The notes beneath the pieces were generated by a model. The model was not told where the DNA came from and made no database searches. It saw only the letters and a program-made list of their open reading frames with translations. A DNA stretch of 64,000 bases from Caulobacter sp. 32-67-35 (GTDB taxonomy: Bacteria > Pseudomonadota > Alphaproteobacteria > Caulobacterales > Caulobacteraceae): contig NCEV01000006.1 in the NCBI GenBank assembly GCA_002280875.1, positions 123,630 to 187,629 on the forward strand, in the 5' to 3' direction. Position numbers and translations under genes: made by a program. This document shows positions 38,733 through 61,895 of this stretch, piece after piece (position 1 is the stretch's first letter; every line of letters starts with the position of its first letter).

Positions 38733-38758
38733 CCCTGTTCTTTGCGATCCCCTCAACT

Positions 38759-41292: not shown

Positions 41293-41316
41293 TTAGAGCG
41301 CCTTCCGGGCGCCGCC

Positions 41317-41323
41317 GGGAGGG
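41317..41323 (+). promoter_or_regulatory. Ribosome binding site that decides the GH43 start
   Basis: GGGAGGG is the strongest Shine-Dalgarno sequence in this gap. It lies 4 nt before ATT 41328 and 7 nt before ATC 41331, and no ATG, GTG or TTG is in frame between it and the signal peptide. Confidence 0.6.
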
Positions 41324-41327
41324 TTCC

Positions 41328-42890: not shown

Positions 42891-42902
42891 CCAGCACGGC
42901 GG

Positions 42903-43646: not shown

Positions 43647-43756
43647 AGGGCTCCTGGGCTGCATACGCAGTCCTATAAGCGCAAGCACCGCAGCCTTGGC
43701 AAGTTTGTCTGGGCTGACCGGATTCGCGGTTCTGGCGCGGCCTCCCGCCGTCGGCG

Positions 43757-45358
43757 CTATGGCTCCAGCTGCACGACGACGATCGACTTTGCCGGAATGT
43801 CCAGGTTCAGCCCCTTGGCGCGCGCCTTGGCGGCATAGGGCTTGGGCATGACCGCGTTGGGCGCGGCGAACGTGTTGAGCGCATCGACGCGGGGCGCGGT
43901 CAGCACCTGACCGCGCGCGCTGGTGGCCCTGGCGCCGGCGACATCCGCCAGAACCGAAGCGGGTCGTGTCGGGTCGAGGTTCGTCACCGCCAGCCAGAGC
44001 TTGCCCTGAGTGTCGCGCGCGGCCACGGCGTCGACGCGCGGCAGCTTGATGTCGCCCTGAACATAGGTCCCGGCGTCGAAACTGACCGGGATCAGGGTCG
44101 CATCCTGGAACGGCACGTACATCTTGAAGACATGATAGGTCGGGGTCAGGACCATCTTGTCGTTGTCGGTCAGGATCATCGCCTGCAGGACGTTGACCAT
44201 CTGGGCGATGTTGGCCACGCGCACCCGGTCGGCGTGACGCGCGAAGATGTTGATGTTCAGCGCGGCGATGATCCCGTCTCGCAGCGTATTCTGCTGGGCC
44301 AGGAAGCCGGGATTGGTGTTGGGCAGCGGCGCCAGCCAGACGCCCCACTCATCGACGGCGAGCGGCACTTTCTTTTCGGGATCATACTTGTCCATGATCG
44401 CCGAATGCTTGGTGATCAGGCCGTCCATGCCCAGGGTCTCGTGGACCAGCTTGGCATAGGCGGTCTCATCGAAGCTGGTGCTGGAATAGGATGGAGGCCA
44501 ACCGCCGGTCGTGTAGGAGTGCAGGGACAGGCCTTCGATGTTCCAGGCCCAGTCATGCCCCTTCTGCGCCGCCATCACCGCTTCGGTATAGGCCGTGTCG
44601 CCCTGGTTGGGGCCAACGGCGATGCGCTGCATGGCCTCGGCGCCGGTCTGCTTGGGGTTGTAGTTGCGCACGAAGCGGGCGTAGCGCTTCATCTCATCTG
44701 TATAGTATTCGGCGCGCATCGCGCCGCCGCAGCTCCAGCTTTCATTGCCGATGCCCAGATACTTGACCTTGTAAGGCTCGGTGCGGCCGTTGGCGACGCG
44801 CTCCTTGCCCGCCGTGGTGGCCGGATCGGCCGTCATGTACTCGATCCACTCGGCGGCTTCCGCGACCGTGCCCGAGCCGACATTGACCGAGATATAGGCC
44901 TCGCTGCCGATCTGCTCGACGAAGTCCATGAACTCGTCGGTGCCGAAGGTGTTGGGTTCGACAGAGCCGCCCCAGTTGGAATTGATGGTCTTGCGACGGT
45001 TCTCGGCCGGACCGATCCCGTGGCGCCAGTGATACTCATCGGCGAAGCACCCGCCCGGCCAGCGGACATTGGGCGCCTTGATCGCCCGCAGGGCCTCGAC
45101 CACGTCCTTGCGAATGCCGCGCGTATTGGGGATCGGCGAGTCCTTACCCACCCAGACGCCGCCATAGATGCCTGTGCCCAGATGCTCGGCGAACTGACCA
45201 AAGATGTTGCGATCGATCTTTGCACCCGGCTTGCCGGCGTCGATCCGCAGGGCGATCGGCGCCTCGGCTCTTGCCTGGGCGTGAACCCCGGCGGGCGCGG
45301 CCAGCGCCAGGGTCAAGGTCAGGGCGGAAGCGGCCAGCGGCCGGGTCAGTGTGATCAT
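43757..45358 (-). CDS. Alpha-L-arabinofuranosidase, GH51
   Basis: 533 aa from ATG 45358 with a GGGGAGAGAC ribosome binding site. A signal peptide (about 1-28, ending VHAQA) makes it a secreted member of a family usually found in the cytoplasm. GH51 features: FGQFAEHLGTGIYGGVWVG near the N-terminus, VRWPGGCFADEYHWRHGIGP, acid/base glutamate in YLGIGNESWSCGG and nucleophile glutamate in PLAVDEWGVWL. C-terminal beta-sandwich contains LPRVDAVAARD. Releases terminal L-arabinofuranose from arabinan or arabinoxylan. An operator of the local type lies about 150 bp upstream. Confidence 0.93.
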   Translation of the reverse strand: MITLTRPLAASALTLTLALAAPAGVHAQARAEAPIALRIDAGKPGAKIDRNIFGQFAEHLGTGIYGGVWVGKDSPIPNTRGIRKDVVEALRAIKAPNVRWPGGCFADEYHWRHGIGPAENRRKTINSNWGGSVEPNTFGTDEFMDFVEQIGSEAYISVNVGSGTVAEAAEWIEYMTADPATTAGKERVANGRTEPYKVKYLGIGNESWSCGGAMRAEYYTDEMKRYARFVRNYNPKQTGAEAMQRIAVGPNQGDTAYTEAVMAAQKGHDWAWNIEGLSLHSYTTGGWPPSYSSTSFDETAYAKLVHETLGMDGLITKHSAIMDKYDPEKKVPLAVDEWGVWLAPLPNTNPGFLAQQNTLRDGIIAALNINIFARHADRVRVANIAQMVNVLQAMILTDNDKMVLTPTYHVFKMYVPFQDATLIPVSFDAGTYVQGDIKLPRVDAVAARDTQGKLWLAVTNLDPTRPASVLADVAGARATSARGQVLTAPRVDALNTFAAPNAVMPKPYAAKARAKGLNLDIPAKSIVVVQLEP

Positions 45359-46502: not shown

Positions 46503-46538
46503 CGGCGTCGTACACAAAAATGTCGCGTGGAGATCGCT

Positions 46539-47165
46539 ATGCCTTCAGCCCTGACGTCAGTGGCCGCGGATCGCACCGAGGCGGCGCCTGGCCGTCCCAC
46601 CCAGGCTCAGGCCGAGGACGCCGTCCGGCTGCTGATCGCCTGGGCCGGCGATGATCCCGGCCGCGAAGGCCTGATCGACACCCCGGCCCGCGTGGCACGC
46701 TCCTACGCCGAGCTCTTCAGCGGCTATAGCGAGGACCCACGAACGCACCTGACCCGCACGTTCAGCGAGACGGGCGGTTATGACGACCTGATCGTCCTTT
46801 CCAACATTCGGGTTGTCAGCTGCTGCGAGCACCACATGCTGCCGGTCATTGGCCGTGCTCATGTGGGCTATCTGCCGGGAAATCGGGTGGTGGGGATCTC
46901 CAAGCTGGCCCGCGTGGTGAGGGGCTTCTCCCGGCGGCTGCAAATTCAGGAAAAGCTCACCACGGATATCGCCAACGCCATCCAGGACAGTCTGGAGCCC
47001 CGGGGCGTGGGCGTTGTCATCGAGGCCGAGCACAGCTGCATGACCCTGCGCGGCGTCGATACGCCCGGTTCGATGCTGACCACCAGCCGCCTGCTGGGGC
47101 AGATGCGAGACGATCCCCAGACCCGTGAGGAATTCCTGAGTCTGGTTCGTCAGGCCCGGGTCTAG
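46539..47165 (+). CDS. folE: GTP cyclohydrolase I
   Basis: 208 aa from ATG 46539 (GGAG 7 nt upstream); a GTG at 46527 is in frame. Complete Fol[23 protein letters not shown], zinc ligands in SCCEHHM and [30 protein letters not shown] and the QIQEKLT motif. Converts GTP to dihydroneopterin triphosphate for folate or pterins. The other folE in this window is broken, so this or another copy must supply the activity. Its stop overlaps the next gene's GTG. Confidence 0.95.
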
Positions 47166-49386: not shown

Positions 49387-50259
49387 CTATTTCGCCACTA
49401 CCTTGGGCAGGGCCGTGATCGGCGTCAGCACCATGTCGCGGAAGAAGGTTTCGGCGCCTTCCGACTGCAACTGGATCGCGCCGTGGGTCAGGGGCTGGTC
49501 GTCAGCCCTGAGATCGCTGACCTCCATCACCGGCACGCCATTGACCACATGCACCGCGCGGTCGCCCAGCACGTAGAGGTCCAGGGTGTTCCACTCGCCG
49601 GCCGGCTTTTCGGCGTCGCTATAGGCCTCGACATTCCAGTCGGCTGTACCGCCCTTGACCGTCTTGACGCGACCGTCCGGCGCGAACCGCAGCTTGGGAT
49701 TGATCAGGGTTGGATCGTCGATCACCGTGGTGACGGCGCTGATCGCCTCGCCCACGGGCACGATCATGCCGGTCGAGCCCAGCATGATCTCGAACTCCGC
49801 GGACTGGCTCCAGGTGCCCCAGACCACGCCCGGCGCGCCGAACGAATGGTAGAGCAGGCCGTTGTTGGGCGCTTCGGCCTCGCGCGGCGCCCAGCGGCCC
49901 TTGCCCCACTTGTACTGCAGGCGCAGGTGATAGTTCTGGAAGTCGCCCCTGCGGACCAGGCTGCCCCAGGTCCTGCCGTTGATATAGAGGGCGGGGCGGC
50001 CATCCTCGACCACCACCTTGAACATCTCGGCGCTCCGGGCTGTCGCGCCGATCGGGGCGACGGGCGGGCGCTTGTAGGTCAGGGCCGGGTCGGCATAGCC
50101 CAGCCACGCGTCCCAATCCTTCAGGTCCTGGCCGTTGAACAGCACCGTCGCGGGGCCGGCAGGCTTGGGGATCTCGGTCAGAACCAGGGTCGGACGCGGG
50201 GTGGCCAAGGCCGGCGCGGCGGCGGCCAGGGCGGCGACAAAGGCCAGGATCTTGTACAT
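49387..50259 (-). CDS. DUF1080 protein, probable 3-keto-disaccharide hydrolase
   Basis: 290 aa from ATG 50259 (GGGAGAGCGC upstream); the open frame continues further but without a ribosome binding site. Signal peptide ends ALAT. Beta-jelly-roll DUF1080: LFNGQDLKDWDAWLG, NYHLRLQYKWGKG, NNGLLYHSFG, AEFEIMLGSTG and EWNTLDLYVLGDRAVHVVNGV. Members cleave glycosides that carry a keto group at C3. First of three paralogues around a GMC-type dehydrogenase cluster. A LacI-type operator word lies 43 bp upstream of the start. Confidence 0.85.
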   Translation of the reverse strand: MYKILAFVAALAAAAPALATPRPTLVLTEIPKPAGPATVLFNGQDLKDWDAWLGYADPALTYKRPPVAPIGATARSAEMFKVVVEDGRPALYINGRTWGSLVRRGDFQNYHLRLQYKWGKGRWAPREAEAPNNGLLYHSFGAPGVVWGTWSQSAEFEIMLGSTGMIVPVGEAISAVTTVIDDPTLINPKLRFAPDGRVKTVKGGTADWNVEAYSDAEKPAGEWNTLDLYVLGDRAVHVVNGVPVMEVSDLRADDQPLTHGAIQLQSEGAETFFRDMVLTPITALPKVVAK

Positions 50260-50301
50260 GCGCTCTCCCTTGCCCTCTTGACGGGACGACGCGACCTTAT
50301 C

Positions 50302-50315
50302 TGACAGCGTTGTCA
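50302..50315. promoter_or_regulatory. LacI-type operator between divergent DUF1080 genes
   Basis: TGACAGCGTTGTCA, the exact reverse complement of the word at 22453-22466 before GH3. Placed 43 bp before the leftward DUF1080 start and 108 bp before the rightward one, so one site could control both. Confidence 0.65.
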
Positions 50316-50422
50316 AGGCAAGCCCATGGATCGCTGTTGCGGCCACCTTGGCGAAGCGGCGTCTAGGCCGCCCCGGCAGGAGGCGATAAGACAGAGCGGT
50401 TCTGGAGGGAGCGCGACATAAC

Positions 50423-51196
50423 ATGACGACGCCAAGCGTGGTTCTCGCCGCCGCGATCGGCCTGCTGGCCGCGGCGCCCGCCCAGAACAGGCCCGAGGAC
50501 ACCGAAGTCTGGACGCCAGTTCCAGCCAAGGTCGAGCCCGCGGCGACCGCCGGCCAGGCGCCGGCCGACGCCATCGTGCTGTTCGACGGCGATGATCTGG
50601 ACCAGTGGGTCTCGGCGAAGGACAAGTCACCGGCCGGCTGGACGGTCGCGGGCGGCGTCCTGACGGTGAACAAGGCGCGGGGCAATATCGAGACCCGCCG
50701 CGCCTTCCGCGACTACCAGCTGCATCTGGAATGGCGCATCCCGGCCGATATCGACGGAACCGGCCAGGGGCGCGGCAATAGCGGCGTATTCCTGGCCTCC
50801 ACGGGGCCAGGCGACGAAGGCTATGAGGTTCAGATCCTCGACTCGTACGGCAACGCCACCTACGCCAACGGGCAGGCCGCCAGCGTCTACAAGCAGCATC
50901 CGCCACTCGCCAATGCCAGCCGTAGGCCGGGCGAGTGGCAGACCTATGACATCGTCTGGCGAGCGCCGGCTTTTGGCGCGGACGGCGCGCTTGTTTCGCC
51001 GGCCAAGGTGACGGTGCTGCACAATGGCATACTGGTGCAGGACAACGCGGTGTTGGCCGGCGAGACCGTCTATATTGGCAAACCCTCGTATCGCCTCCAC
51101 GGCGCGACGCCGATCAAGCTGCAGGCCCATGGCGACCCCAGCGTGCCGATCAGCTTCCGCAATATCTGGCTGCGCGAGCTTGCGCCCCGTCCCTAG
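50423..51196 (+). CDS. DUF1080 protein, probable 3-keto-glycoside hydrolase
   Basis: 257 aa. Short signal peptide (AAIGLLAAAPAQ). DUF1080 core: IVLFDGDDLDQWVS, AFRDYQLHLEWRIP, GQGRGNSGVFLAS, YEVQILDSYGN, RPGEWQTYDIVWRAP and the closing VPISFRNIWLREL. This domain layout with GNSGVF and YEVQILDS is the canonical form. It is divergent from the previous paralogue and converges on the LacI gene with overlapping stop codons. Periplasmic action after oxidation of the glycoside is inferred. Confidence 0.88.
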   Translation: MTTPSVVLAAAIGLLAAAPAQNRPEDTEVWTPVPAKVEPAATAGQAPADAIVLFDGDDLDQWVSAKDKSPAGWTVAGGVLTVNKARGNIETRRAFRDYQLHLEWRIPADIDGTGQGRGNSGVFLASTGPGDEGYEVQILDSYGNATYANGQAASVYKQHPPLANASRRPGEWQTYDIVWRAPAFGADGALVSPAKVTVLHNGILVQDNAVLAGETVYIGKPSYRLHGATPIKLQAHGDPSVPISFRNIWLRELAPRP

Positions 51197-52200
51197 GCCG
51201 GCGGCGGGGCGGTGCTTTCCCGCACCACCAGGCGGTGGGGCAGGGTGACATTCTGCAGCGCGCTGGCCCGGTCGGCCAGAATGTCGAGCAATAGCCGGAC
51301 CACCTCATGGCCGATCTGCTCCATCGGCTGGCTGACCGTGGTCAGTTTGGGGTTCAGGTATTGAGCGAAGCGGATGTCGTCGAAGCCGACCAGCGATATG
51401 TCGTCCGGGCAGCGCAGGCCGCGCTGGCGGATGGCCTCCAGCGCGCCCATGGCCATCTCGTCGCTGAAGCAGAAGATCGCCGTCGGCCGGCCGGGCTCGT
51501 CCAGAAGCTCGCCCGTCTGGCGCACGCCCGACTCGATCGAGAAATCGCCGACGGAGATGCGCAGGGCGCTGGCGCGGCCCTGACGCTGGGCGGCGGCCAG
51601 CACGCCGGTCAGGCGGTCGCTGCTGATCGGGCTGGCCAGAGGGCCGGTGACCACGCCGATGCGGGTGTGGCCCAGGCCGTAGAGATACGTCATCACCTCG
51701 GCGGCGGCGCGTTCGTTGTCGATGTGGGCGCTGGAGACCGCCAGGCCCGGCCGAAACTCGCAGCCGTTGACGATCGGCGTCCGGGGGCCCTTGGCGGCGA
51801 CCATGTCGGCCAGAACGTTCGGCAGGCGGTGGCCCAGGAAGATCAGACCGTCGGCCTCCTTGCGCCGGAACATGGCGGCGTACTGCTCTTCGCGCGCCTC
51901 CTCGTGGCGGGTGTCGCCCAGCAGAACCGAATAGCCCGCCGCCATGGCGGCTTCCTCGACGCCCCGGATCACCTGGGAGAAGAAGGGGTTGGAGATGTCC
52001 GGCACGGTGACCAGGATCTTTTCGGTCCGCAGGGTGCGCAGGCTCCTGGCCGCGAAATTGGGCTCGTAGCCCAGGCGGTTGACCGCCTCCATCACCTTGC
52101 TGCGCGTCGCTTCTAGCACCAGTTCGGGAGCGCTGAACACGCGGGAAACCGTCGCGGTCGAGACACCCGCGTCCCGCGCGACATCTTGAATGGTGGCCAT
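51193..52200 (-). CDS. LacI-family transcriptional regulator
   Basis: 335 aa. N-terminal HTH TIQDVARDAGVSTATVSRVF with hinge EPNFAARSLRT, followed by a periplasmic-binding-protein-like sugar domain (DISNPFFSQVIRGVEEAAMAAGYSVLLGDT, FCFSDEMAMGALEAIRQRGLRCPDDISLVGFDDIRFAQYL). Divergent from the MFS/isomerase/oxidoreductase operon, and adjacent to DUF1080 genes. Best candidate to bind the 14-bp TGACA/TGTCA word found here and upstream of GH3. Confidence 0.93.
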   Translation of the reverse strand: MATIQDVARDAGVSTATVSRVFSAPELVLEATRSKVMEAVNRLGYEPNFAARSLRTLRTEKILVTVPDISNPFFSQVIRGVEEAAMAAGYSVLLGDTRHEEAREEQYAAMFRRKEADGLIFLGHRLPNVLADMVAAKGPRTPIVNGCEFRPGLAVSSAHIDNERAAAEVMTYLYGLGHTRIGVVTGPLASPISSDRLTGVLAAAQRQGRASALRISVGDFSIESGVRQTGELLDEPGRPTAIFCFSDEMAMGALEAIRQRGLRCPDDISLVGFDDIRFAQYLNPKLTTVSQPMEQIGHEVVRLLLDILADRASALQNVTLPHRLVVRESTAPPPA

Positions 52201-52378
52201 CGGCGGACACTGGCGACAAGGCGGGAGCTTGGCAAGGCACAGCGAGGCGCGGCTGGTTGATCGGTTACACGGTTGCCGCCTTGACGGGCCTTGCTATCGA
52301 TGATTTCGATTACATCAGAGCGGATGCGGTCCAAACGGGTCGAAACAAGCCGCCTGTGCTGGTCGGGGAGGGCCAACC

Positions 52379-53641
52379 ATGACGACGAGCTTCCGGCTCT
52401 TTCTGATGATGGTGCTGCAACTGGCCATCTGGGGCGCCTGGGCGCCCAAGATCTTCCCCTACATGGGCATGCTGGGCTTCGAGCCGTGGCAGCAGTCGCT
52501 GGTCGGCAGCTCGTGGGGCGTGGCCGCCCTGGTCGGCATCTTCTTCTCCAACCAGTTCGCGGACCGCAATTTCGCGGCCGAGCGCTTCCTGGCCGTCAGC
52601 CACCTGATCGGCGGTCTGGCCTTGGTCGGCACGGCCTTCGCGACCAGCTTCTGGCCTTTCTTCGCCTGCTACCTGATCTTCAGCCTGGTTTATGTGCCGA
52701 CCCTGTCGGTGACCAACTCCATCGCCTTCGCCAACCTGCGCAACCCGGCGGCCGACTTCGGGGCGGTGCGCATGGGCGGCACGGTGGGCTGGGTGCTGGT
52801 CAGCTGGCCGTTCGTCTTCCTGCTGGGCGCCAATGCCGACGTCGAGCAGATGCGCTGGATCTTCCTGGTGGCGGCGCTCGTCTCTTTCGTCTTCGCTGCC
52901 TACTCTCTGACCTTGCCGCACACTCCAGCCCGCAAGGACGCGCCCGGCATCGACAAGCTGGCCTGGCGACGCGCCTTCAAGCTGTTGGCGACGCCGTTCG
53001 TGCTGGTGCTGTTCATCGTCACCTTCATCGATTCCGTCATCCACAACGGCTACTTCGTGATGGCCGACGCCTTCCTGACCAACCGTGTGGGCATCGCCGG
53101 CAATCTGAGCATGGTGGTGCTGAGCCTGGGCCAGGTGGCCGAGATCCTGACCATGTTCCTGCTGGGCCGGGTGCTGGCCAAGCTGGGCTGGAAGATCACC
53201 ATGATTGTCGGGGTGCTGGGCCACGCCGCGCGCTTTGCGGTCTTCGCCTTCTTCGCCGACAGCATCCCGGTGATCGTGGCCGTGCAGCTGCTGCACGGGA
53301 TCTGCTACGCCTTCTTCTTCGCCACGGTGTACATCTTCGTCGACGCGGTGTTTCCCAAGGATGTGCGCTCCAGCGCTCAGGGCCTGTTCAACCTGCTGAT
53401 CCTGGGCGTCGGCAATGTGGTGGCCAGCTTCCTGTTCCCGTCGCTGATCAGCCGCCTGACCCAGACGGGCGCCGATGGCGTCGCGACGGTGGACTATACC
53501 AGCCTGTTCCTGGTCCCCACCGGCATGGCTCTCGCGGCCGTGTGTCTGTTGGCCCTGTTCTTCAAACCGCCGACCCGCGCCCCGGTGGCCGAGGTCGCCG
53601 ACGACGGGCCGGTGGCGGCCGCCACCCCGGCCCAGCCCTGA
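52379..53641 (+). CDS. MFS permease, nucleoside:proton symporter (NupG-like) type
   Basis: 420 aa, about 12 membrane helices. The opening FLMMVLQLAIWGAWAPKIFPYM and LVYVPTLSVTNSIAFANL, plus later GICYAFFFATVYIFVDAVFPKDVRSSAQGLFNLLI, are the usual features of the nucleoside/H+ symporter group. In this cluster it more probably imports a 3-keto-sugar or a glycoside product. First gene of an operon with isomerase, oxidoreductase and isomerase genes. Confidence 0.87.
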   Translation: MTTSFRLFLMMVLQLAIWGAWAPKIFPYMGMLGFEPWQQSLVGSSWGVAALVGIFFSNQFADRNFAAERFLAVSHLIGGLALVGTAFATSFWPFFACYLIFSLVYVPTLSVTNSIAFANLRNPAADFGAVRMGGTVGWVLVSWPFVFLLGANADVEQMRWIFLVAALVSFVFAAYSLTLPHTPARKDAPGIDKLAWRRAFKLLATPFVLVLFIVTFIDSVIHNGYFVMADAFLTNRVGIAGNLSMVVLSLGQVAEILTMFLLGRVLAKLGWKITMIVGVLGHAARFAVFAFFADSIPVIVAVQLLHGICYAFFFATVYIFVDAVFPKDVRSSAQGLFNLLILGVGNVVASFLFPSLISRLTQTGADGVATVDYTSLFLVPTGMALAAVCLLALFFKPPTRAPVAEVADDGPVAAATPAQP

Positions 53642-53644
53642 CCC

Positions 53645-54634
53645 ATGCCCATCCAGAAAAAGGAAAGCCTCGTGCGCTCAACTGTTTTCGGAAATCGCGC
53701 CGACCTGTCGCGGCGGGGCCTGCTGGGCGCCGGCGCGGCGGCCCTGGGCATGACCTGGGGCGGCGCCGCCCGTGCGGCGGACAAGCCGTTCTTCCAGCGC
53801 CACAACCTGCCGGTCGGCATCCAGCTCTACAGCCTGGGTCCGGATCTGGCCAAGGAGCTGGACGCCCAGCTCGCCACCGTGGCCAGGATCGGCTTCAAGT
53901 CGGTGGAGCTGGCCGGCTATCTGGGCCGCACCCCGGCCGAGCTGCGCGCCGCTTTCGATCGCGCCGGCCTGATCTGCCCCAGCGCTCACATCTCGCCCAA
54001 GGGCGAGAGCGGCTTCAGCGGCGATCTGGCCAAGCTGGCTGACGAACTGCACGTGATCGGGGTGAAGTCGGCGATCATGCCGATCCACTATATCCCTGAC
54101 CGCATGGGCGCCGCCGACCTGCGTCAGGCCGGCGTGCAGATGACCGCCGATGACTGGAAATGGAACGCTGACTTCCTCAACGAGAAGGCCGTCGTGCTCA
54201 AGAAAGCCGGCATCATCAGCGGCTATCACAACCACAATTTCGAGTTCGCCCCGCTGAAAGACAAGAATGGGGGCGACACCAACGGCATGGAGATCCTGCT
54301 GAAGGGCACGGACCCGAACCTCGTCACCTTCGAGCTGGACGCCGGCTGGGTCACGGCGGCGGGTCACGATCCCATCGCCCTGATGAAGGCGCATCCGGGC
54401 CGGTTCACCCAGATGCACGTCAAGGACATCAAGCCCACGACCAAGGCCAATTTCGAGCTGCGGCAGGATCCGACCGAGGTCGGCGGCGGCATGATCGACT
54501 GGACGAAACTGCTGCCGGCCGCCTACGCCGCCGGGATCCGGGGCTTCTATTACGAGCAGGAGCCGCCGTTCGCCCACGCCCGTCTGGAGTCGGCCCGGAT
54601 CAGCTTTGAGTACCTGGCGAAAGTGACGGCCTGA
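53645..54634 (+). CDS. TIM-barrel sugar isomerase/epimerase with Tat-like signal
   Basis: 329 aa. N-terminus contains SRRGLLGAGAAALG, a twin-arginine-type export signal ending ARAADKP, so it is probably periplasmic. Xylose-isomerase-like TIM barrel: GIQLYSLGPDL, VGFKSVELAGY-like segment, AIMPIHYIP, SGYHNHNFEFAPL, ELDAGWVTAAGHDPIALM, QMHVKDIKP. The H, E and D/K residues shown are typical metal-binding and catalytic ones. Could epimerise or isomerise the keto sugar produced by the GMC dehydrogenase. It starts 3 bp after the MFS stop. Confidence 0.85.
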   Translation: MPIQKKESLVRSTVFGNRADLSRRGLLGAGAAALGMTWGGAARAADKPFFQRHNLPVGIQLYSLGPDLAKELDAQLATVARIGFKSVELAGYLGRTPAELRAAFDRAGLICPSAHISPKGESGFSGDLAKLADELHVIGVKSAIMPIHYIPDRMGAADLRQAGVQMTADDWKWNADFLNEKAVVLKKAGIISGYHNHNFEFAPLKDKNGGDTNGMEILLKGTDPNLVTFELDAGWVTAAGHDPIALMKAHPGRFTQMHVKDIKPTTKANFELRQDPTEVGGGMIDWTKLLPAAYAAGIRGFYYEQEPPFAHARLESARISFEYLAKVTA

Positions 54635-55812
54635 TGAGCGCGCGCGCGCCCCTGCGGCTGGCCATGGTGGGCGGCGGTCCCGGCTCGTTCATCGGGCCGG
54701 TACATCGCATGGCCGCCGAACTGGACGGCCGCATCCGTCTGGTGGCCGGTGTGTTCAGCCGCGATCCGGCCAAGAACGCGGCGGCGGCCGATGGCTGGGG
54801 CGTGGCGCGCGACCGGATCTATCCCGACCATCACGCGATGATCGCCGCCGAGCGGGCCCGCTCCGACGGGGCCGATCTGGTTGCGGTGGTGACGCCCAAC
54901 CACCTGCACTTCGACGTCTCGGCGGCCGCCCTGCGCGGCGGGCTGCACGTGATCAGCGACAAGCCCGCCACGCTGAACCTGGCCCAGGCCAAGGAATTGG
55001 CTGAGATCGTCACCGCGTCAGGCAAGCTGTACGCCCTGACCTATACCTATACCGGCTATCCGATGGTCCGCGAGGCGCGCGAGATCGTGGCGCGCGGAGA
55101 CCTGGGCGCGGTGCGCAAGGTGGTTGTCGAATATTCGCAAGGCTGGCTGTCGCGACCGCTGGAGCGGGAAGGCAACAAGCAGGCCGACTGGCGCTCGGAC
55201 CCCGCGCAATCAGGTGTGGGCGGCTGCATTGGCGACATTGGCGTCCACGCCTTCAACATCGCCGAGTTCCTCACCGGCCGCCGGGTCGAGCACCTGTGCG
55301 CCGACGTCGCCACGGTGGTTCCGGGGCGGAACCTGGACGACGACTGCAACGTGCTGCTGCGGTTCGAGGGCGGCGCGCGCGGCGTGCTGATCGCCTCGCA
55401 GATCTCGGCGGGCGCGCGCAACGGGCTGAAGATCAGCGTCTATGGCGAGACAGGCGGCCTGACCTGGAGCCACGAGCGTCACACCGAGCTGACCCTGGAC
55501 TGGCTGGACGCGCCCAGCCAGGTGCTGCACGCCGGCTCGGCCTATCTGGGCGCGGGCGCCCAGGCGGTGACGCGGATCCCGACCGGCCATCCCGAGGGTT
55601 TCATCGAGGCCTTCGCCAATATCTACCGCGACTTCGCCGACGCGATCGAGGGGCAGGGCTCGGGGCTGGTCCCGGACATCGCCGAGGGCGTGCGCGGCAT
55701 GGCCTTTGTCGAGCGCGCCGTGGCCGCCAGCCGCAGCGACGCGGGCTGGGTGGCGCTGGCCACCAGCCCGGCTCAGCCGGGTTGGGCGACCCAAGAAGGA
55801 GAGGGCCGATGA
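54634..55812 (+). CDS. Gfo/Idh/MocA-family oxidoreductase
   Basis: 392 aa, overlapping the previous stop by one base (ATGA). N-terminal Rossmann fold GGGPGSFIGPVHRMAAELDG, then VTPNHLHFDVSAAALRGGLHVISDKPATLNLAQAKELA (the DKP is the EKP-like motif) and CIGDIGVHAFNIAEFLTGR. Cytoplasmic NAD(P)-dependent sugar oxidoreductase. In known 3-keto-glycoside pathways such enzymes reduce 3-keto-glucose or interconvert 3-keto sugars. Ordered between two TIM-barrel isomerases. Confidence 0.9.
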   Translation: MSARAPLRLAMVGGGPGSFIGPVHRMAAELDGRIRLVAGVFSRDPAKNAAAADGWGVARDRIYPDHHAMIAAERARSDGADLVAVVTPNHLHFDVSAAALRGGLHVISDKPATLNLAQAKELAEIVTASGKLYALTYTYTGYPMVREAREIVARGDLGAVRKVVVEYSQGWLSRPLEREGNKQADWRSDPAQSGVGGCIGDIGVHAFNIAEFLTGRRVEHLCADVATVVPGRNLDDDCNVLLRFEGGARGVLIASQISAGARNGLKISVYGETGGLTWSHERHTELTLDWLDAPSQVLHAGSAYLGAGAQAVTRIPTGHPEGFIEAFANIYRDFADAIEGQGSGLVPDIAEGVRGMAFVERAVAASRSDAGWVALATSPAQPGWATQEGEGR

Positions 55813-56864
55813 AGACGCTCAAGGGACCGGCCATTTTCCTGGCCCAGTTCATCGGCAGCGAGCCCCCGTTCGACACGCTGGAGACCATGGCCGCCTGGGT
55901 CGCCGACCTCGGCTATGTCGGGGTGCAGATGCCCACCGGCGGGGCGGACTCGTTCTTCGACCTGGCCCTGGCCGCCGAGAGCCAGACCTATTGCGACGAC
56001 ATTGCCGGGATGCTGGCCACCCACGGTCTGCAGATCACCGAGCTTTCGACCCATCTGCAGGGCCAACTGGTGGCCGTGCATCCGGCCTATGACGAGCTGT
56101 TCGACGGCTTCGCCCCGCCCGAGGTGCGTGGCAAGCCGGCCGAGCGTCAGGCCTGGGCGGTGGGGCAGGTCAAGGCCGCCGCCGTCGCCAGCCGGCGCCT
56201 GGGCCTGAACGCCCACGCCACCTTTTCCGGCGCTTTGGCGTGGCCGTATTTCTATCCGTGGCCGCAGCGGCCGGCCGGTCTGGTCGAGGAGGCTTTCGCC
56301 GAGCTGGGCCGTCGCTGGAAGCCGATCCTCGACGTCTTCGAGACCGAGGGCGTCGACGTCTGCTACGAGATCCATCCGGGCGAGGATCTGCACGACGGCG
56401 CAACCTTCGAGCGGTTCCTGGACGAGGTGGGCGGCCATCCGCGCGCCAATATCCTGTATGATCCCAGCCACTTCGTGCTGCAGCAGCTGGACTATCTGGG
56501 CTATATCGACCGCTATCACGAGCGGATCAAAGCCTTCCACGTCAAGGACGCCGAGTTCCGGCCCTCGGCCCGGTCGGGCGTCTATGGCGGCTATCAGGGC
56601 TGGGCCGAGCGGCCGGGGCGCTTCCGCTCGCTGGGCGATGGCCAGGTGGACTTCAAGGCGATCTTTTCCAAGCTGGCCCAGTACGACTATGCCGGCTGGG
56701 CGGTGCTGGAATGGGAGTGCGCGCTGAAGCATCCCGAGCAGGGCGCCCGCGAAGGCGCGCCGTTCATCCGCGATCACATCATCCAGGTGACGGACCGGGC
56801 GTTCGACGACTTCGCCGGCAGCGCGCCCGACGCCGGCCGCAATCGGCGGCTACTGGGCCTTTAG
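55809..56864 (+). CDS. TIM-barrel sugar isomerase/epimerase
   Basis: 351 aa, starting inside the previous gene's stop region. No signal peptide, unlike its relative at 53645. TIM-barrel: FLAQFIGSEPPFDTLETMAAWVADLGYVGVQMP, VCYEIHPGEDLHDGATFERF, NILYDPSHFVLQQLDYLGYID, KAFHVKDAEFRPS, AVLEWECALKHPEQGA. The E, D/H, D and E residues fit a metal site. Cytoplasmic. Probably a later step in the keto-sugar pathway than the exported paralogue. Confidence 0.88.
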   Translation: MKTLKGPAIFLAQFIGSEPPFDTLETMAAWVADLGYVGVQMPTGGADSFFDLALAAESQTYCDDIAGMLATHGLQITELSTHLQGQLVAVHPAYDELFDGFAPPEVRGKPAERQAWAVGQVKAAAVASRRLGLNAHATFSGALAWPYFYPWPQRPAGLVEEAFAELGRRWKPILDVFETEGVDVCYEIHPGEDLHDGATFERFLDEVGGHPRANILYDPSHFVLQQLDYLGYIDRYHERIKAFHVKDAEFRPSARSGVYGGYQGWAERPGRFRSLGDGQVDFKAIFSKLAQYDYAGWAVLEWECALKHPEQGAREGAPFIRDHIIQVTDRAFDDFAGSAPDAGRNRRLLGL

Positions 56865-56890
56865 ACCAAACCTTCGAGGAAGACGTCCTG

Positions 56891-57250
56891 ATGAAGTTCC
56901 AGCTTTTGCTCGTCGCTGCATTGTCGGCCATGGCGACCAGCGCCGTGGCCGCGCCGTCGGGCCCGGACGTGTTCGAACAACGCTGCGCGGTCTGCCACTC
57001 GCTGAAGCCCGCGCCGGGCAAGATGGGGCCGCCCCTGGCTGGCGTCGTTGGCCGCAAGGCCGGAACGCTTGGCGGCTATGCCTACAGTAACGCCCTGAAG
57101 GCCTCGGGCATCACCTGGAACGCCCAGACGCTGGACGCCTATGTCAAAGCCCCGGCCAAGACCGTGCCGGGGACCAAGATGCTGCTCGGCGCGCCCGACG
57201 CCCAGCAGCGCGCGGCCGTGATCCAGTACCTGGCTTCGGTCAAGAAGTAG
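56891..57250 (+). CDS. Class I cytochrome c
   Basis: 119 aa from ATG 56891. Signal peptide (about 1-21, AVAAPS). Heme attachment CAVCH with C32, C35 and H36; axial methionine in PGTKMLLGAP. Monoheme periplasmic cytochrome, the size of cytochrome c2/c550. It ends an operon of sugar enzymes and lies 1.2 kb before the GMC dehydrogenase, so it is the likely electron acceptor of that enzyme. Confidence 0.93.
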   Translation: MKFQLLLVAALSAMATSAVAAPSGPDVFEQRCAVCHSLKPAPGKMGPPLAGVVGRKAGTLGGYAYSNALKASGITWNAQTLDAYVKAPAKTVPGTKMLLGAPDAQQRAAVIQYLASVKK

Positions 57251-57289
57251 GGCGGGGCATCCTGCGGGAGCGCTACACCTACAAAAACT

Positions 57290-57401
57290 TGTCATCCCGG
57301 ACGAGCGCGCAGCGTGAAGATCCGGGACCGACGCGTGAACTCGGTGCTCCCCGCGGTCCCGGATCTGCGCCCGGCTTGCGCCGAGCTTGTCCGGGATGAC
57401 A
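57290..57401. repeat. REP-like nested inverted repeat
   Basis: Outer arms TGTCATCCCGGAC (57290-57302) and GTCCGGGATGACA (57389-57401) enclose inner arms AGATCCGGGACCG (57318-57330) and CGGTCCCGGATCT (57354-57366), all perfect. Extragenic, between convergent cytochrome c and DUF1080 genes. Alphaproteobacterial extragenic palindromes often have the TCATCCCGGAC core. Confidence 0.8.
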
Positions 57402-57440
57402 GCATCTGGATTCCGGACGCAACGCTGCGCCTAGGCGAAG

Positions 57441-58295
57441 CTACTGCGCCGTCAGCTCCTGGATCTCGATGTCCTTGAATTCGATGGGATGGCCCTCGCT
57501 CTGCAGGGCGATATAGCCCTCCGTCACCGGCTGGGCGCCGCGCGCCAGGATGTAGGGCTTGGCCCCGCCCGCGACGGTGTCGTCGGGATCCAGGGTCAGG
57601 CCGGCATAGTGGTGGACCACCACCCCGTCGATTTTCTGGAAGACCTCGCCATTGGGCCGGACCTCCAGTTCGACCTTCGTCCAGGTCCCATCCGGAATGG
57701 TCGGCGCATTGGCCGGGGGCGTGCAGTGCTCCTTGGCCTTCACGCCGTCGAAGGTGATCGTGATCCCGGGCGTGCAGACTGCGCCGGTGGGGCGGGGCGC
57801 GTCGCCGTCCTTGCCCAGCAGCTGGAACTCCACCGACACGGGGAAGGACTGCTCCACCATCATGCTCGCGGGGCTCTGGCTGTGGAACATCACCCCGCTG
57901 TTGCTGCGCGCCCAGGCGGGCGTGTCGGCCAAGGCCCCCTCCGTGAGGAAGCGATAGGTGAACCGCAGGCGATAGGCCTTGAACGGGGTCTTGTAGAACA
58001 GGTGTCCGAACTGTCCGTTCAGCGTGTCGTAGCCGGCATAGGACACCCGGATGGCGCCCTGATCGACCACGAAGGTCTGCTGATGATTTTTACCCACAGG
58101 ATGCTTGGCGATCTTCGGCGTCCACCCGTCCAGCGTGCGGCCATCGAACAGCGAGCGCCACGGCCCGGCCTTCAGCTCCTCGGCGCTGGCCGCGCTGACG
58201 ACGCCCAGCGACAGGCACCCGAGCAGGGCGCTCACTGCGACGCGGCGCCTGGCTGTTACATGGCGAACCTGTGTGGAACGATCTGACGTGGTCAT
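57441..58295 (-). CDS. DUF1080 protein, probable 3-keto-glycoside hydrolase
   Basis: 284 aa from ATG 58295 with GGGAGGAAA upstream; longer in-frame starts lack one. Signal peptide ends AASAEE. DUF1080 core: LFDGRTLDGWTPKI, AYRLRFTYRF, NSGVMFHSQSP, FPVSVEFQLLGKDG, GTWTKVELEV, VHHYAGLTLDPDD and closing HPIEFKDIEIQEL. Divergent from the GMC dehydrogenase, sharing a 170-bp promoter region. Third paralogue of this type; the three are clearly diverged. Confidence 0.88.
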   Translation of the reverse strand: MTTSDRSTQVRHVTARRRVAVSALLGCLSLGVVSAASAEELKAGPWRSLFDGRTLDGWTPKIAKHPVGKNHQQTFVVDQGAIRVSYAGYDTLNGQFGHLFYKTPFKAYRLRFTYRFLTEGALADTPAWARSNSGVMFHSQSPASMMVEQSFPVSVEFQLLGKDGDAPRPTGAVCTPGITITFDGVKAKEHCTPPANAPTIPDGTWTKVELEVRPNGEVFQKIDGVVVHHYAGLTLDPDDTVAGGAKPYILARGAQPVTEGYIALQSEGHPIEFKDIEIQELTAQ

Positions 58296-58465
58296 GGCTG
58301 GTTTCCTCCCGCGCGCCCAACAACTTACGTCGATTGCCGAGCTTTCTTGCAATGTAACCCATTTCATGGAAGCCTTTCGCCAACAATCAAGGGGTTCGCC
58401 GAGGTTGCGTGTCGGGCTGTAACGGGCCGGCCTCGCGCCACGAGCGAGCGGATGAGGGAACACCC

Positions 58466-60136
58466 ATGGCCAATCTCACCGGTCGCGCGCGCCGAAAAAA
58501 CACCTATGACGCCATCGTCGTGGGCAGCGGCATCACCGGCGGCATCGCGGCCAAGGAGCTGACCCAGAAGGGGCTCAAGACGCTGGTGCTGGAGCGCGGG
58601 CCGATGGTGCGCCACCAGCAGGACTATCCCACCGCCATGACGGCGCCCTGGGAGACCAAGTACCCGCAAGGGCAACTGCCCCAGGCTGAACTGGCCGCCA
58701 AATACTCCGTCCAGCGCCGCACCGGCTACACGATGACGGAGCACACCCAGCACTTCTTCGTGCGCGACGACGAGAACCCCTATGTCGAGGAAAACCGCTT
58801 CGACTGGATTCGCGGCTATCACGTGGGCGGACGGTCGCTGACCTGGGGTCGCCAGAGCTATCGCCACAGCCCGATCGATTTCGAGGCCAATGCCCGCGAG
58901 GGGATCGGCGTCGACTGGCCGATCCGCTATGAGGACCTGGCCCCGTGGTACGACCACGTCGAGCGCTTCATTGGCGTGTCGGGTCAGGCCGAGGGGCTGC
59001 CTCATCTGCCTGACGGCCAGTACCAGCCGGCGATGGAGATGAACTGCGTCGAGAAGGCCTTCAAGGCCAAGTCCGAGGCGCGGTTCCCCGAACGCCGGAT
59101 CACCATGGGCCGCACGGCGCACCTGACCGAGCCGACGGAGGAGCAGATGAGCCTTGGCCGGACCAAGTGCCAGCACCGCAACCTGTGCATTCGCGGCTGT
59201 CCGTTCGGCGCCTATTACAGCTCCAACTCCGGCGGGCTGGTGGCGGCCGAGCGCACCGGCAATCTGGTGATCCGCCCCGGCTCGATCGTCACCTCGCTGA
59301 TCTATGACGAGAAGGCGGGCAAGGCGACGGGCGTGCGCATCCTGGACGCGACAACGCGCCAGGAAGAGGAGTTCTATGCTGACGTGGTGTTCCTGTGCGC
59401 CTCGGCCTTCAACTCGGCCTGGATCATGATGAACTCGACCAGCTCGCGGTTCCCCAACGGCTTTGGCAATGGCAGCGACCAGCTGGGCCGAAACGTGATG
59501 GACCACCATCTGGGCGTGGGCGCATCGGGCGAGGCGCCCGAGTTTGCCGACCAGTACTATTCCGGCCGCCGACCCAACGGCATCTATGTGCCGCGCTTCC
59601 GCAACCTGGGTGACGCGGCCACCAAGCGCACCGACTATCTGCGAGGCTTCGGCTATCAGGGCGGCGCATCTCGCGCGGGCTGGGACCGCGACCTGGGCCG
59701 GCGCAGCGACGGCAGCAGCGGCTTTGGGGCCGAGCGCAAGGCGGCGCTCAGTCAGGCCGGGCCCTGGACCATTGGCCTGGGCGGCTTTGGCGAAATCCTC
59801 CCCTACGAGGACAACCGCCTGACCCTGAACCACGACATGCAAACGGCGGCGGCCGAGATGCTGGAGGCGGCGGGCTTCAAGAACGTCAAGGGTCGCGATG
59901 GCGGCTACGCGCCGGGCCTGGGCATCCATGAAATGGGCACCGCGCGCATGGGCCGGGATCCCAAGACCTCGGTGTTGAACGCCCACAACCAGGTGCATGA
60001 GTGCAAGAACGTCTATGTCACCGACGGCGCAGCCATGACCTCGGCGTCCTGCGTGAACCCGTCCCTGACCTATATGGCCCTGACCGCACGCGCGGTCGAT
60101 CACGCCGTCCAGGCGCGCAAGCGGGGAGACCTGTGA
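58466..60136 (+). CDS. GMC-family flavoprotein dehydrogenase, probable glycoside 3-dehydrogenase subunit
   Basis: 556 aa from ATG 58466 (GAGGGA upstream). FAD-binding N-terminus VVGSGITGGIAAKELTQKGLKTLVLERG, GGRSLTWGRQSYR, and C-terminal HEMGTARMG plus VTDGAAMTSASCVNPSLTYMALTARAV, containing catalytic histidine and asparagine. A cysteine cluster C-x5-C-x3-C lies at about residues 235-246 (KCQHRNLCIRGC), which could bind an Fe-S centre. With a subunit-3 protein next in line and a cytochrome c nearby, it fits the three-part periplasmic dehydrogenases that oxidise C3 of glycosides or gluconate. It ends in a TGATG overlap. Confidence 0.9.
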   Translation: MANLTGRARRKNTYDAIVVGSGITGGIAAKELTQKGLKTLVLERGPMVRHQQDYPTAMTAPWETKYPQGQLPQAELAAKYSVQRRTGYTMTEHTQHFFVRDDENPYVEENRFDWIRGYHVGGRSLTWGRQSYRHSPIDFEANAREGIGVDWPIRYEDLAPWYDHVERFIGVSGQAEGLPHLPDGQYQPAMEMNCVEKAFKAKSEARFPERRITMGRTAHLTEPTEEQMSLGRTKCQHRNLCIRGCPFGAYYSSNSGGLVAAERTGNLVIRPGSIVTSLIYDEKAGKATGVRILDATTRQEEEFYADVVFLCASAFNSAWIMMNSTSSRFPNGFGNGSDQLGRNVMDHHLGVGASGEAPEFADQYYSGRRPNGIYVPRFRNLGDAATKRTDYLRGFGYQGGASRAGWDRDLGRRSDGSSGFGAERKAALSQAGPWTIGLGGFGEILPYEDNRLTLNHDMQTAAAEMLEAAGFKNVKGRDGGYAPGLGIHEMGTARMGRDPKTSVLNAHNQVHECKNVYVTDGAAMTSASCVNPSLTYMALTARAVDHAVQARKRGDL

Positions 60137-60711
60137 TGCTGAACCGACGCGACACCCTTCGGGGCCTGGCCCTGACGATCGGGGTTGGCGCCTCAGGCTG
60201 GGCCGAGCGCGCCCTTGCGGCCGCCGCGCCAGCGCCGGCCCTGACCTGGACCCCCACAGCTTTGACGCCCGATCAGGCCCGCGTGCTGGATGTGGTGGCC
60301 GAACTGATCATTCCGAAGACGGACACGCCCGGCGCCCGCGAGGCCGGGGTGCCCCAGTTCATCGACCGGGCCCTGGCCAACTATTACGAGAAGGATCAAG
60401 CCGATAGATTGCGGGCCGGTCTGACGCGCATGGACGCCGACGCCCAGGCCGCCCATGGCGCCGCGTTCATCGCCCTCACCCCGCAGCAACAGGTCGATCT
60501 GCTGACGGCCTATGAGCGCGAAGGCGTTGCGGCCAAGGCGCAGACACCCAGCCAGTCCCACTTTTTCCCGGCCCTCGAAGACATGGTGACGGTGGGCTAT
60601 TTCACCTCCGAACCCGGCGCCACGGTGGCGCTGCAGTATGATCCCGTGCCCGGCGCCTATCGTGGCTGCGTGCCGCTGGCGGAGATCGGGCGCGCCTGGG
60701 CGACCCGCTAG
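60136..60711 (+). CDS. Gluconate 2-dehydrogenase subunit 3 family protein
   Basis: 191 aa; ATG 60136 overlaps the GMC stop. Twin-arginine-type signal NRRDTLRGLALTIG ending AAAAPAP. Subunit-3 features: VLDVVAELIIPKTDTPGAREAGVPQFIDRALANYY and DMVTVGYFTSEPGATVALQYDPVPGAYRGCVPLAE. Non-catalytic partner that carries the GMC subunit through the Tat system and helps attach it. It converges on the photolyase-like gene with overlapping stops. Confidence 0.92.
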   Translation: MLNRRDTLRGLALTIGVGASGWAERALAAAAPAPALTWTPTALTPDQARVLDVVAELIIPKTDTPGAREAGVPQFIDRALANYYEKDQADRLRAGLTRMDADAQAAHGAAFIALTPQQQVDLLTAYEREGVAAKAQTPSQSHFFPALEDMVTVGYFTSEPGATVALQYDPVPGAYRGCVPLAEIGRAWATR

Positions 60712-61895
60712 GTCAGATCGCCGTCCGCGAGGATGGACATGGCGCGCGCCTTGAAGGGGAAGAAACCCTTGATCGCGTGAGGCCAGAGCTGGTCGTCCCA
60801 GCGACGTCGCGCCTGGACCAGCGTCACACCCTCATTGGCCAGGGCCGGAGCCAGGCGTTTGAGGGCGTCCGCGACGGGACCGACCGGCGCATAGGGCGTG
60901 ATAATCTGTTGGGCGCCTGCCGCCTTGGCAGCCGACAGCAGGCTCTCGGCATCCAGGCTGTCGCAGAGTGTTGCGGGGCGCCCGAAAGCCTTCTCCGCAC
61001 GGGCTGCCGTATCCACAGCCGCAGCTTTGACGAAATCATGGGCCGCCTTGCCCCAGAGCAGGCGCTCATCGATCGCGACGACGGTCGCCTCGAAGGGCGT
61101 TATTGGTGCGAAAAGCGACTCCGGGTGCATGTCCTCGTGGGTCACAAGCAGGATCGCGGGCTGGGAAGGCTTGGCGCGGTGCGAGTCTGGCAGCGCGCAA
61201 GCCGGCGGTATCGGCGGCTCTGCGATCACCCTGGCCTCCGTCGCCAGGCCCTTGGGCGCAAAGCGATGGTTGGTGTAGCGCGCGATGTTGTCGGTTGAGG
61301 CGAGATAGGTCTTGCCCGGGGTCTGCAGTCCCGCGACCCAGCGCCAGGACATGGTGTTGCTGGCCGCGTCAGCGTCGATCAGATGGCGAAGGAAAAAGTC
61401 CGCGCCCAACGTCCAGGGCAGCTGCAGCGTGAAAATCCAGATGGAGGCGAACCACATGCGGGCATGGTTGTGGAGGTATCCGGTCTGGCGCAGTTCCAGC
61501 ACCCAGTCATCGAACCCCTCGATGCCCGTCCGCCCCGCCAGGGCCTCGGCCAGGGCAGGGGTGTTTGCGAAGATCTCGCTCTGGCGATCCCGCTCCGTCG
61601 TGAACCGGGTCCAGATGGACGGGCGCATTTCCAGCCAGCCCTTCCAATAGGAGCGCCATAGCACCTCCTGGATGAACATCTGGGCTGACGCCATGTCGTG
61701 CTGCGACAGCACGGCGGCAATGATCTCTGGCTCGGTGATCAGGCGATGGCGCACATAGGCCGAAAGTCTCGAGACGGCGGCCGGCTGGTCGGGGCCCGGA
61801 TCAATATTGCGCCCGGACGCATAGGATCGATCCGCCCTGGGGACAAATTCGGCGAGCGTCTGCAGCGCAGCGGCGCGGGTGGGCGGCAAGATCAT
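60708..61895 (-). CDS. Photolyase/cryptochrome-family protein with FAD domain first
   Basis: 395 aa from ATG 61895; the frame is open to 61979. Residues about 1-240 match the FAD-binding helical domain of DNA photolyases: FVPRADRSYASGRNIDPGP, VSRLSAYVRHRL, SAQMFIQEVLWRSYWKGWLE, TGYLHNHARMWFASIW, HLIDADAASNTMSWRWVAG. Residues about 255-390 look like an alpha/beta domain (AILLVTHEDMHPES, SAAKAAGAQQIITPYAPVGPVADALKRLAP). Classical photolyases have the alpha/beta antenna domain in front, so the order appears inverted. DNA-repair versus signalling role is open. Confidence 0.82.
   Translation of the reverse strand: MILPPTRAAALQTLAEFVPRADRSYASGRNIDPGPDQPAAVSRLSAYVRHRLITEPEIIAAVLSQHDMASAQMFIQEVLWRSYWKGWLEMRPSIWTRFTTERDRQSEIFANTPALAEALAGRTGIEGFDDWVLELRQTGYLHNHARMWFASIWIFTLQLPWTLGADFFLRHLIDADAASNTMSWRWVAGLQTPGKTYLASTDNIARYTNHRFAPKGLATEARVIAEPPIPPACALPDSHRAKPSQPAILLVTHEDMHPESLFAPITPFEATVVAIDERLLWGKAAHDFVKAAAVDTAARAEKAFGRPATLCDSLDAESLLSAAKAAGAQQIITPYAPVGPVADALKRLAPALANEGVTLVQARRRWDDQLWPHAIKGFFPFKARAMSILADGDLT

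Follow-up and report, generated by a model that had tools for sequence, protein, structure and literature searches.

A Caulobacter lacABC-type 3-keto-glycoside cluster with an internally deleted GMC dehydrogenase gene, eliminase- and hydratase-like TIM barrels and an adjoining DUF1080 gene that probably belongs to another regulon

The region considered here spans positions 49387-60711 of a 64,000-nucleotide window of the Caulobacter sp. 32-67-35 draft genome (contig NCEV01000006.1, positions 123,630 to 187,629; all coordinates below are those of the window) and encodes eleven proteins of a 3-keto-glycoside cluster. The initial annotation had listed three diverged DUF1080 hydrolases, a GMC dehydrogenase with its subunit-3 partner, a cytochrome c, two TIM-barrel isomerases, a Gfo/Idh oxidoreductase, an MFS permease and a LacI regulator, and this gene list stands, all eleven giving Pfam matches over the cut-off. 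Gene starts were picked by eye, and the PF06439 (DUF1080) bit scores were computed on the longest frames. The genes and two operator-like sites are the following:

49387..50259, minus strand: D1, third DUF1080 protein (PF06439, 96.8 bits), with a Sec-type signal peptide and a C-terminal LQSEG motif
50302..50315, no strand: TGACAGCGTTGTCA, LacI-type operator-like palindrome 5' of D1, recognized by motif conservation
50423..51196, plus strand: D2, DUF1080 protein (PF06439, 148.1 bits), with a signal peptide and an LQAHG motif
51193..52200, minus strand: LacI-family regulator (Pfam)
52295..52314, no strand: imperfect inverted repeat TATCGATGATTTCGATTACA 5' of the MFS gene, candidate cluster operator, from intergenic alignment
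52379..53641, plus strand: MFS permease of the Nuc_H_symport family (Pfam, 537 bits)
53645..54634, plus strand: TIM1, AP_endonuc_2 TIM barrel similar to O-glycoside beta-eliminase (OGE), with a twin-arginine signal and the active-site residues of the Agrobacterium tumefaciens enzyme (AtOGE)
54634..55812, plus strand: Gfo/Idh/MocA oxidoreductase (GFO_IDH_MocA), candidate 3-keto-sugar reductase, no export signal seen
55809..56864, plus strand: TIM2, AP_endonuc_2 TIM barrel, predicted 2-hydroxy-3-keto-glucal hydratase (from PDB 8ro4), no export signal seen
56891..57250, plus strand: cytochrome c in the lacB position, with a Sec signal and CXXCH
57441..58295, minus strand: D3, DUF1080 protein (PF06439, 126.9 bits), with a signal peptide and an LQSEG motif
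58466..60136, plus strand: GMC dehydrogenase, LacA orthologue, with an in-frame 26-residue deletion at 59833/59834
60136..60711, plus strand: Gluconate_2-dh3 subunit (subunit 3) in the lacC position, with a twin-arginine signal

The three PF06439 scores compare with a Pfam cut-off of 26.8, and no further matches to this family were found in the whole 4.1 Mb draft genome, in which Gluconate_2-dh3 is matched once and GMC_oxred_C six times. Sec-type signal peptides are found at the N-termini of D1, D2, D3 and the cytochrome c, and twin-arginine (Tat) motifs in TIM1 (LSRRGLLGAGAAALG), bearing out the export signal that had been noticed on one TIM barrel, and in subunit 3 (LNRRDTLRGLALTIG). No export signal was seen in the GMC protein, the Gfo/Idh protein or TIM2, all signal calls being based on by-eye reading and a hydropathy scan. 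The GMC large subunit, the Tat-signalled subunit 3 and the cytochrome c are encoded together in the window. A long inverted stretch (GTCATCCCGGAC... / ...GTCCGGGATGAC), similar to an interspersed repeat or a terminator, lies at approximately 57285-57405 between the cytochrome c gene and D3, and a photolyase/cryptochrome-like gene (FAD_binding_7, 60708-61895) is directly convergent with that of subunit 3.

The GMC protein was used to query GTDB genomes, the best 80 of 402 relatives being kept. The 31 closest of the loci collected (L004-L034) are, by title, mostly of Caulobacter and Phenylobacterium, and three are titled only (Alpha)proteobacteria. The order D2(+) LacI(-) MFS(+) TIM1(+) Gfo/Idh(+) TIM2(+) cytochrome c(+) D3(-) GMC(+) subunit 3(+) is identical and complete in 11 of the 31, including that of C. 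vibrioides DSM 9893 (L014); in the remaining loci the cluster is cut by contig ends, or one or more of its genes gave no match. D1 was found in only one of the 31, that of Caulobacter sp. 602-1 (L013). The best-segment identity of the window GMC is 86% to that of Caulobacter sp. Root343 and 82% to that of C. vibrioides DSM 9893. In L012 and L014 a second GMC gene, 42% identical, is present 3' of subunit 3 on the opposite strand; in the window genome, the lac GMC was the only one found at E<=1e-30.

The cluster is that of the Caulobacter lacABC 3-keto-glycoside system, which is already known: in C. crescentus NA1000 lacABC, two DUF1080 genes, a transporter, two epimerases and one reductase have been described together, with published fitness phenotypes for all of these components and a genetic link to the use of lactose, raffinose and salicin (PMC9007349). 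Since the same cluster has been described there, the general scheme of the initial annotation, namely periplasmic oxidation and cleavage followed by import and reduction, agrees with the published one and is supported by its genetics. The scheme proposed for C. crescentus is a hydrolysis yielding glucose and 3-ketogalactose, and the DUF1080 protein CCNA_01705 gave a strong defect on lactose (PMC9007349). From position, locus-tag spacing and the text of that paper, D2 would correspond to CCNA_01698 and D3 to CCNA_01705. The expectation of several glycosidic substrates is supported for the equivalents of D2 and D3 by the fitness data (PMC9007349), and no support for it was found for D1. The gene content is shared with the C. 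crescentus cluster, and the order in the window is that of the C. vibrioides DSM 9893 locus; the window differs in the third DUF1080 gene (D1) beside D2 and in the 26 residues absent from the GMC protein.

The description of the two TIM barrels as isomerases is not supported, their matches being to a beta-eliminase and to a 2-hydroxy-3-keto-glucal hydratase, and neither barrel appears to be an isomerase. TIM2 matches PDB 8ro4, entitled '2-hydroxy-3-keto-glucal hydratase', over its full length (609 bits) with 73.4% identity (256 of 349 aligned residues). As the 8ro4 match gave no organism, we can only guess that this structure is that of AtHYD, the A. tumefaciens hydratase. The best solved match of TIM1 is 8bvk, the structure of AtOGE, in which His132, Asp163, His189 and, weakly, Glu233 are metal ligands and His134 is catalytic, the H134A variant being inactive (PMC10628242). 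TIM1 residues H195, H197, D232, H258 and E304 align to His132, His134, Asp163, His189 and Glu233 of AtOGE with five of five identical, and all five are invariant in the 29 TIM1 orthologue rows.

Two published systems offer parallels. In the A. tumefaciens GlycDH/AtOGE/AtHYD/Gfo operon the two 'sugar phosphate isomerases' are an eliminase, as demonstrated, and a hydratase, on preliminary evidence (PMC10628242); the window shares with it the AtOGE active-site residues, in TIM1, and a probable hydratase, TIM2 being 73% identical to 8ro4. The Tat signal on TIM1 and the DUF1080 genes are features of the window in a comparison made from the window side only. LgdB1 and LgdB2 of Bacillus smithii are also TIM barrels. 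In the levoglucosan pathway of this organism the four enzymes encoded by lgdA-B1-B2-C bring about the same succession of oxidation, elimination, hydration and reduction, with an NAD-dependent oxidation and with neither GMC nor DUF1080 proteins named in the available parts of the paper (PMC7676230). By taking into account the identity of TIM2 to 8ro4, the AtOGE residues of TIM1 and these parallels, TIM1 is most likely a periplasmic eliminase and TIM2 a cytosolic hydratase, so that elimination, hydration and reduction are indicated over a simple hydrolysis. No paper joining Caulobacter with '2-hydroxy-3-keto' was found in the open literature searched, and the link may still have been published.

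The DUF1080 proteins are as diverged as had been noticed: D1 is 31% identical to D2 and 28% to D3, and the D1 and D3 rows are 21-29% identical to D2, the overall range of 21-31% ruling out that the three are recent tandem copies of one hydrolase. A search of NCBIfam with D1, D2 and D3 matched no family; the structural match of D2 is 4qhz (253 bits). The proteins differ at a short C-terminal motif, which reads LQAHG in 35 of 36 rows of D2 orthologues (the remaining row being unreadable), LQSEG in 26 of 26 rows for D3, and LQSEG, FQSEG and LQADG in 23, 3 and 2, respectively, of the 28 rows for D1; for some genes the rows include duplicates of the 602-1 locus (L013, L112, L136). Thirteen distinct solved DUF1080 sequences were matched, with the motif position printed for six (4qhz, 3hbk, 3h3l, 4jqt, 3nmb, 8v31), all of which carry His there, and not seen for seven. 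In a scan of DUF1080 open reading frames the H-type motif was present in 30 and the E-type in 58 of 98 non-identical matches, a sample biased to the collected loci. Elsewhere in the protein, the window D1 has Phe140 where the 27 other D1 orthologue rows have His.

A possible meaning of the motif comes from Bacteroides thetaiotaomicron, in which the H275N variant of a 3-keto-O-glycoside lyase is hydration-deficient (PMC13273386). BT2157 is 290 residues long, and the motif His lies 15 residues before the end of 3nmb, i.e. at position 275; from this length and the 3nmb tail, the His of LQxHG would be H275 and the H275N enzyme BT2157. If so, D1 and D3 would act as lyases and depend on a second enzyme for hydration, and this would account for a dedicated hydratase being encoded in the operon. 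BT2156 is presumably a TIM barrel and BT2158 presumably of the Gfo/Idh kind. The BT2156-BT2160 locus resembles the window in that BT2157 is a DUF1080 3-ketotrehalose hydrolase (PMC9007349), and differs in its dehydrogenase, BT2158, named a glycoside 3-dehydrogenase, where the window has a GMC protein. According to a review, BT2158 and one of the two proteins BT2156 and BT2157 are enough to convert glucosinolates in vitro (PMC12385236), and a growth defect on raffinose-family sugars is absent in single BT2157 or BT2158 deletions (PMC11501099).

The view of D1 as the third of 'three hydrolases' of one pathway is not upheld by its distribution. D1 is present in 18 of 75 genomes of the genus Caulobacter and, in a sample of 149 genomes of the family, in nine that belong to one further genus. 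A LacA orthologue accompanies it in 13 of the 18. Of these 13, two (the window genome and 602-1) have D1 beside the cluster, three have it on the same contig 0.5-1.3 Mb apart and eight on a separate contig; at four of these eight separate loci (L109, L110, L111, L113) there is no cluster gene within approximately 6-9 kb on either side. The other five of the 18 are without a LacA-like GMC at E<=1e-30, and four of the five are at least 93% complete. That D1 is a conserved component of the lac cluster can be rejected, as it adjoins the cluster in two of 13 genomes with both and in one of the 31 closest loci. Among 14 stretches taken as D1 neighbourhoods (L112 being the lac cluster of 602-1; L120 was left out), no common sugar partner was recognized across the 12 other neighbourhoods, whose genes are partly annotated. 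An arabinofuranosidase-type homologue stands beside D1 in two of them (L118, L122), too few to be used.

D1 also has an operator-like site of its own. With up to two mismatches, TGACAnCGnTGTCA is found 5' of all 18 Caulobacter D1 genes, with 45-72 bp between its first base and the extrapolated start, the reversed control always showing at least four mismatches; in the other genus a site with fewer than three mismatches precedes D1 in one of nine genomes. The window genome contains 11 perfect TGACAnCGnTGTCA sites and 19 one-mismatch places, as opposed to one match of the reversed control at up to one mismatch. All 11 perfect and 11 of the 19 one-mismatch sites were inspected, and the other eight were not looked at. 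Perfect or one-mismatch sites lie 5' of a zwf / edd / glk / LacI-family run (C86), and others 5' of an MFS gene, three TonB-dependent receptor genes and GH9 and GH43 genes; ten of the proteins behind the sites were checked with Pfam and the third TonB-dependent receptor (L201) by eye. Within the window, one such perfect or one-mismatch site, a palindrome of the same motif class (TGACAACGCTGTCA, 22453-22466), lies just 5' of a GH3 gene (20058-22325, minus strand), which a gene for a GntP-family permease (18718-20058) adjoins. By eye, a run of tryptophan-halogenase-family look-alikes stands behind one one-mismatch site (L206).

The cluster itself carries a different conserved repeat, 5' of its MFS gene, in all 13 aligned LacI-MFS intergenic regions, the window included. 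TATCGATGATTTCGATTACA is the sole perfect match in the genome, and TATCGANNNNNTCGATTACA occurs genome-wide at one perfect, one one-mismatch and four two-mismatch places, so that no wider regulon is seen. Because the D1 motif recurs at sugar genes and the cluster has a different repeat, D1 most likely belongs to a LacI regulon of the glucose/glucan type and is not controlled by the LacI protein of the cluster, as far as can be judged from the sites. It would, then, be a DUF1080 gene in its own right, drawn from a different regulon with a probable link to glucose or glucans, and standing beside the cluster in two of the genomes seen.

The pathway is also less complete than it had looked, the GMC protein being internally deleted. 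It has 556 residues, compared with 579-585 for its Caulobacter and 574-577 for its Phenylobacterium orthologues, and 26 residues are gone in frame after residue 456. The deleted segment is kept in all 31 closest and all 40 wider aligned orthologue rows. These lengths leave out L033 (Caulobacter sp. BP25), in which the GMC frame is broken part-way, possibly by a sequencing error, and which enters the alignment only with the part 3' of the break. In the genus, a GMC protein of at least 80% identity is present in 22 of 75 genomes and the segment in all 21 others, one of which (G106) has the frame broken elsewhere in the gene. In the window protein the match to GMC_oxred_C runs from profile position 85 to 138 only, compared with 1-138 in six of six orthologues scanned, and a full-length C-terminal domain is absent. 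The intact 602-1 orthologue was modelled with AlphaFold on 41 rows (mean predicted local distance difference test score, pLDDT, 83; predicted template-modelling score 0.88; the single-sequence model, with pLDDT 31.7, was of no use). The nearest solved folds to this model are fructose dehydrogenase and flavin adenine dinucleotide glucose dehydrogenase complexes, and in the region it shows two strands (451-459 and 465-470) and a helix (475-494). According to this model, the loss of 457-482 would remove the end of the former strand, the whole of the latter and the start of the helix. The segment contains the near-invariant positions D460, G463, P465, N476, E477, M480 and R481 (L013 numbering; 41-row alignment with the window included). 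As the C-terminal domain of the GMC protein would have lost one full strand, together with portions of an adjacent strand and of a helix, the first step of the pathway is probably impaired or lost in this genome and, since no GMC/subunit-3 pair other than the lac pair was found in the draft, the pathway may be left without it. The window GMC is best regarded as a LacA orthologue with a lesion, with no claim as to its activity.

Taken together, the locus is read, with a probability of roughly 0.7, as a lacABC keto-glycoside cluster with a damaged GMC gene, TIM barrels acting as eliminase and hydratase, and D1 contributed by another regulon. On the observed gene order, protein families, signal motifs, identity of TIM2 to the hydratase and AtOGE catalytic residues in TIM1, a scheme can be drawn in which we infer each reaction, its location and the electron path for this organism. 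In relatives with an intact gene, the Tat-exported GMC/subunit-3 pair would, in the periplasm, oxidize lactose and other glycosides at C3 and pass the electrons to the cytochrome c; the exported D2 and D3, with the exported OGE-like TIM1, would cleave the glycosidic bond, with beta-elimination accounting for at least part of the cleavage; import of the keto-sugar or its glycal would fall to the MFS permease; and in the cytosol TIM2 would hydrate the 2-hydroxy-3-keto-glycal to the 3-keto-sugar, which the Gfo/Idh protein would reduce to a hexose. More tentatively, and with considerable doubt, one glycosidase reaction may be split across the inner membrane, with LQSEG-type DUF1080 proteins and Tat-exported TIM1 carrying out the elimination only, the Nuc_H_symport-type permease taking up the 2-hydroxy-3-keto-glycal as such, to be hydrated and reduced in the cytosol; H-type (LQxHG) DUF1080 proteins would then be lyase-hydratases and E-type (LQSEG) ones pure lyases.

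Several observations weigh against the reading as a whole. The C. crescentus paper proposes hydrolysis, and it is the E-type DUF1080 protein, the equivalent of D3, that is needed on lactose (PMC9007349); the identity of TIM1 to AtOGE is no higher than 31.9%; D1 is found together with LacA more often than expected by chance within the genus (13 genomes with both, 5 with D1 only, 9 with LacA only, 48 with neither; Fisher p 1.6e-5, phylogeny not controlled); the 18 D1 sites precede orthologous genes and are, therefore, not independent; one perfect TGACAnCGnTGTCA site lies inside a gene (L193), and several others precede genes that are unannotated or have no evident sugar role (e.g. L192, L194, L199, L207). 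The nonsynonymous divergence (dN) of the GMC gene from six relatives is within the range of the other cluster genes, with no relaxed selection seen, so that there is no sign of long decay and the deletion, if real, is probably recent; and the genome is a draft of 163 contigs, in which the deletion could be an assembly error.

The last point leads to a possibility to be taken seriously, even if we do not favour it, namely that the missing segment was lost in assembly, the cluster itself being whole and working. Besides the draft state and the dN that is not raised, it would fit with the ten other cluster genes, in which window-only gaps do not exceed two columns, and with the deletion ends, which fall within short stretches resembling each other (ACCACGAC in the window; at the same ends in the four relatives printed, ACC[A/G]CGAC or ACCACGGC, and GCCGCGAC). 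However, a similarity of approximately 7-8 bases is short for the collapse of 78 bp by an assembler, the frame is preserved exactly, and replication slippage would be expected to leave the same picture. That the shortened protein is functional with an altered substrate range appears improbable: the deletion is in frame, the C-terminal motifs (HEMGTARMGRDP, NPSLTYMA) are intact, as are subunit 3 and the cytochrome c, but the near-invariant positions and one whole modelled strand fall within the missing segment. For TIM1, a role as periplasmic hydratase or epimerase to the exclusion of elimination is rather unlikely; TIM1 does match IolE-like and 'sugar phosphate isomerase' relatives too, and LgdB2 of B. 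smithii has been suggested by its authors to catalyse both elimination and hydration (PMC7676230), but the best solved match remains AtOGE, with its active-site residues five out of five. Improbable, too, is the scheme of the initial annotation taken whole, with DUF1080 proteins as true hydrolases, TIM barrels as isomerases of the released sugars, a complete pathway and D1 as a third specificity. The family name, the hydrolysis proposal of PMC9007349, the adjacency of D1 and D2 in the window and in Caulobacter sp. 602-1, and the co-occurrence of D1 with LacA in the genus would all agree with it, but TIM2 shares 73% identity with a hydratase, the active-site residues of the eliminase are retained in TIM1, D1 stands away from the cluster in 11 of the 13 genomes with both and is found without LacA in five, and the GMC gene bears its deletion.

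Elsewhere in the window, a neighbouring sugar cluster (28349-45358) includes genes for an IlvD/Edd dehydratase (28349-30151), an aldehyde dehydrogenase (31669-33165), an ECF-type (extracytoplasmic function) sigma factor (34257-34760), a TonB-dependent receptor (35826-38732), an aldose epimerase (39946-41067), a GH43 protein (41409-42890), a GntR regulator (42903-43646) and an arabinofuranosidase-type protein (43757-45358). Two GTP cyclohydrolase I genes lie within a span of approximately 17 kb, at 30171-30608 (187 bits; by appearance N-terminally short as called) and 46527-47165 (235 bits), and a tryptophan-halogenase-family gene (184-1716, 632 bits) is followed by a second one of similar appearance by eye (1741-3270).

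The system is of a known kind, to which the analysis adds the reassignment of two enzymes, a damaged key gene in this genome, pending reads, and one gene that is probably outside the system. What becomes of the 3-keto-sugar and what the two 'epimerases' of the Caulobacter lac cluster do is not settled in PMC9007349, and the latter are now given concrete, testable reactions, i.e. periplasmic elimination and cytosolic hydration, with the cargo of the permease becoming the question. The H/E split in the C-terminal motif of DUF1080 proteins would predict which members of the family are able to hydrate their own product. The GMC deletion is a warning that a domain-complete cluster may be inactive at its first step, and the operator-like site that D1 has for itself indicates that adjacency need not equal pathway membership.

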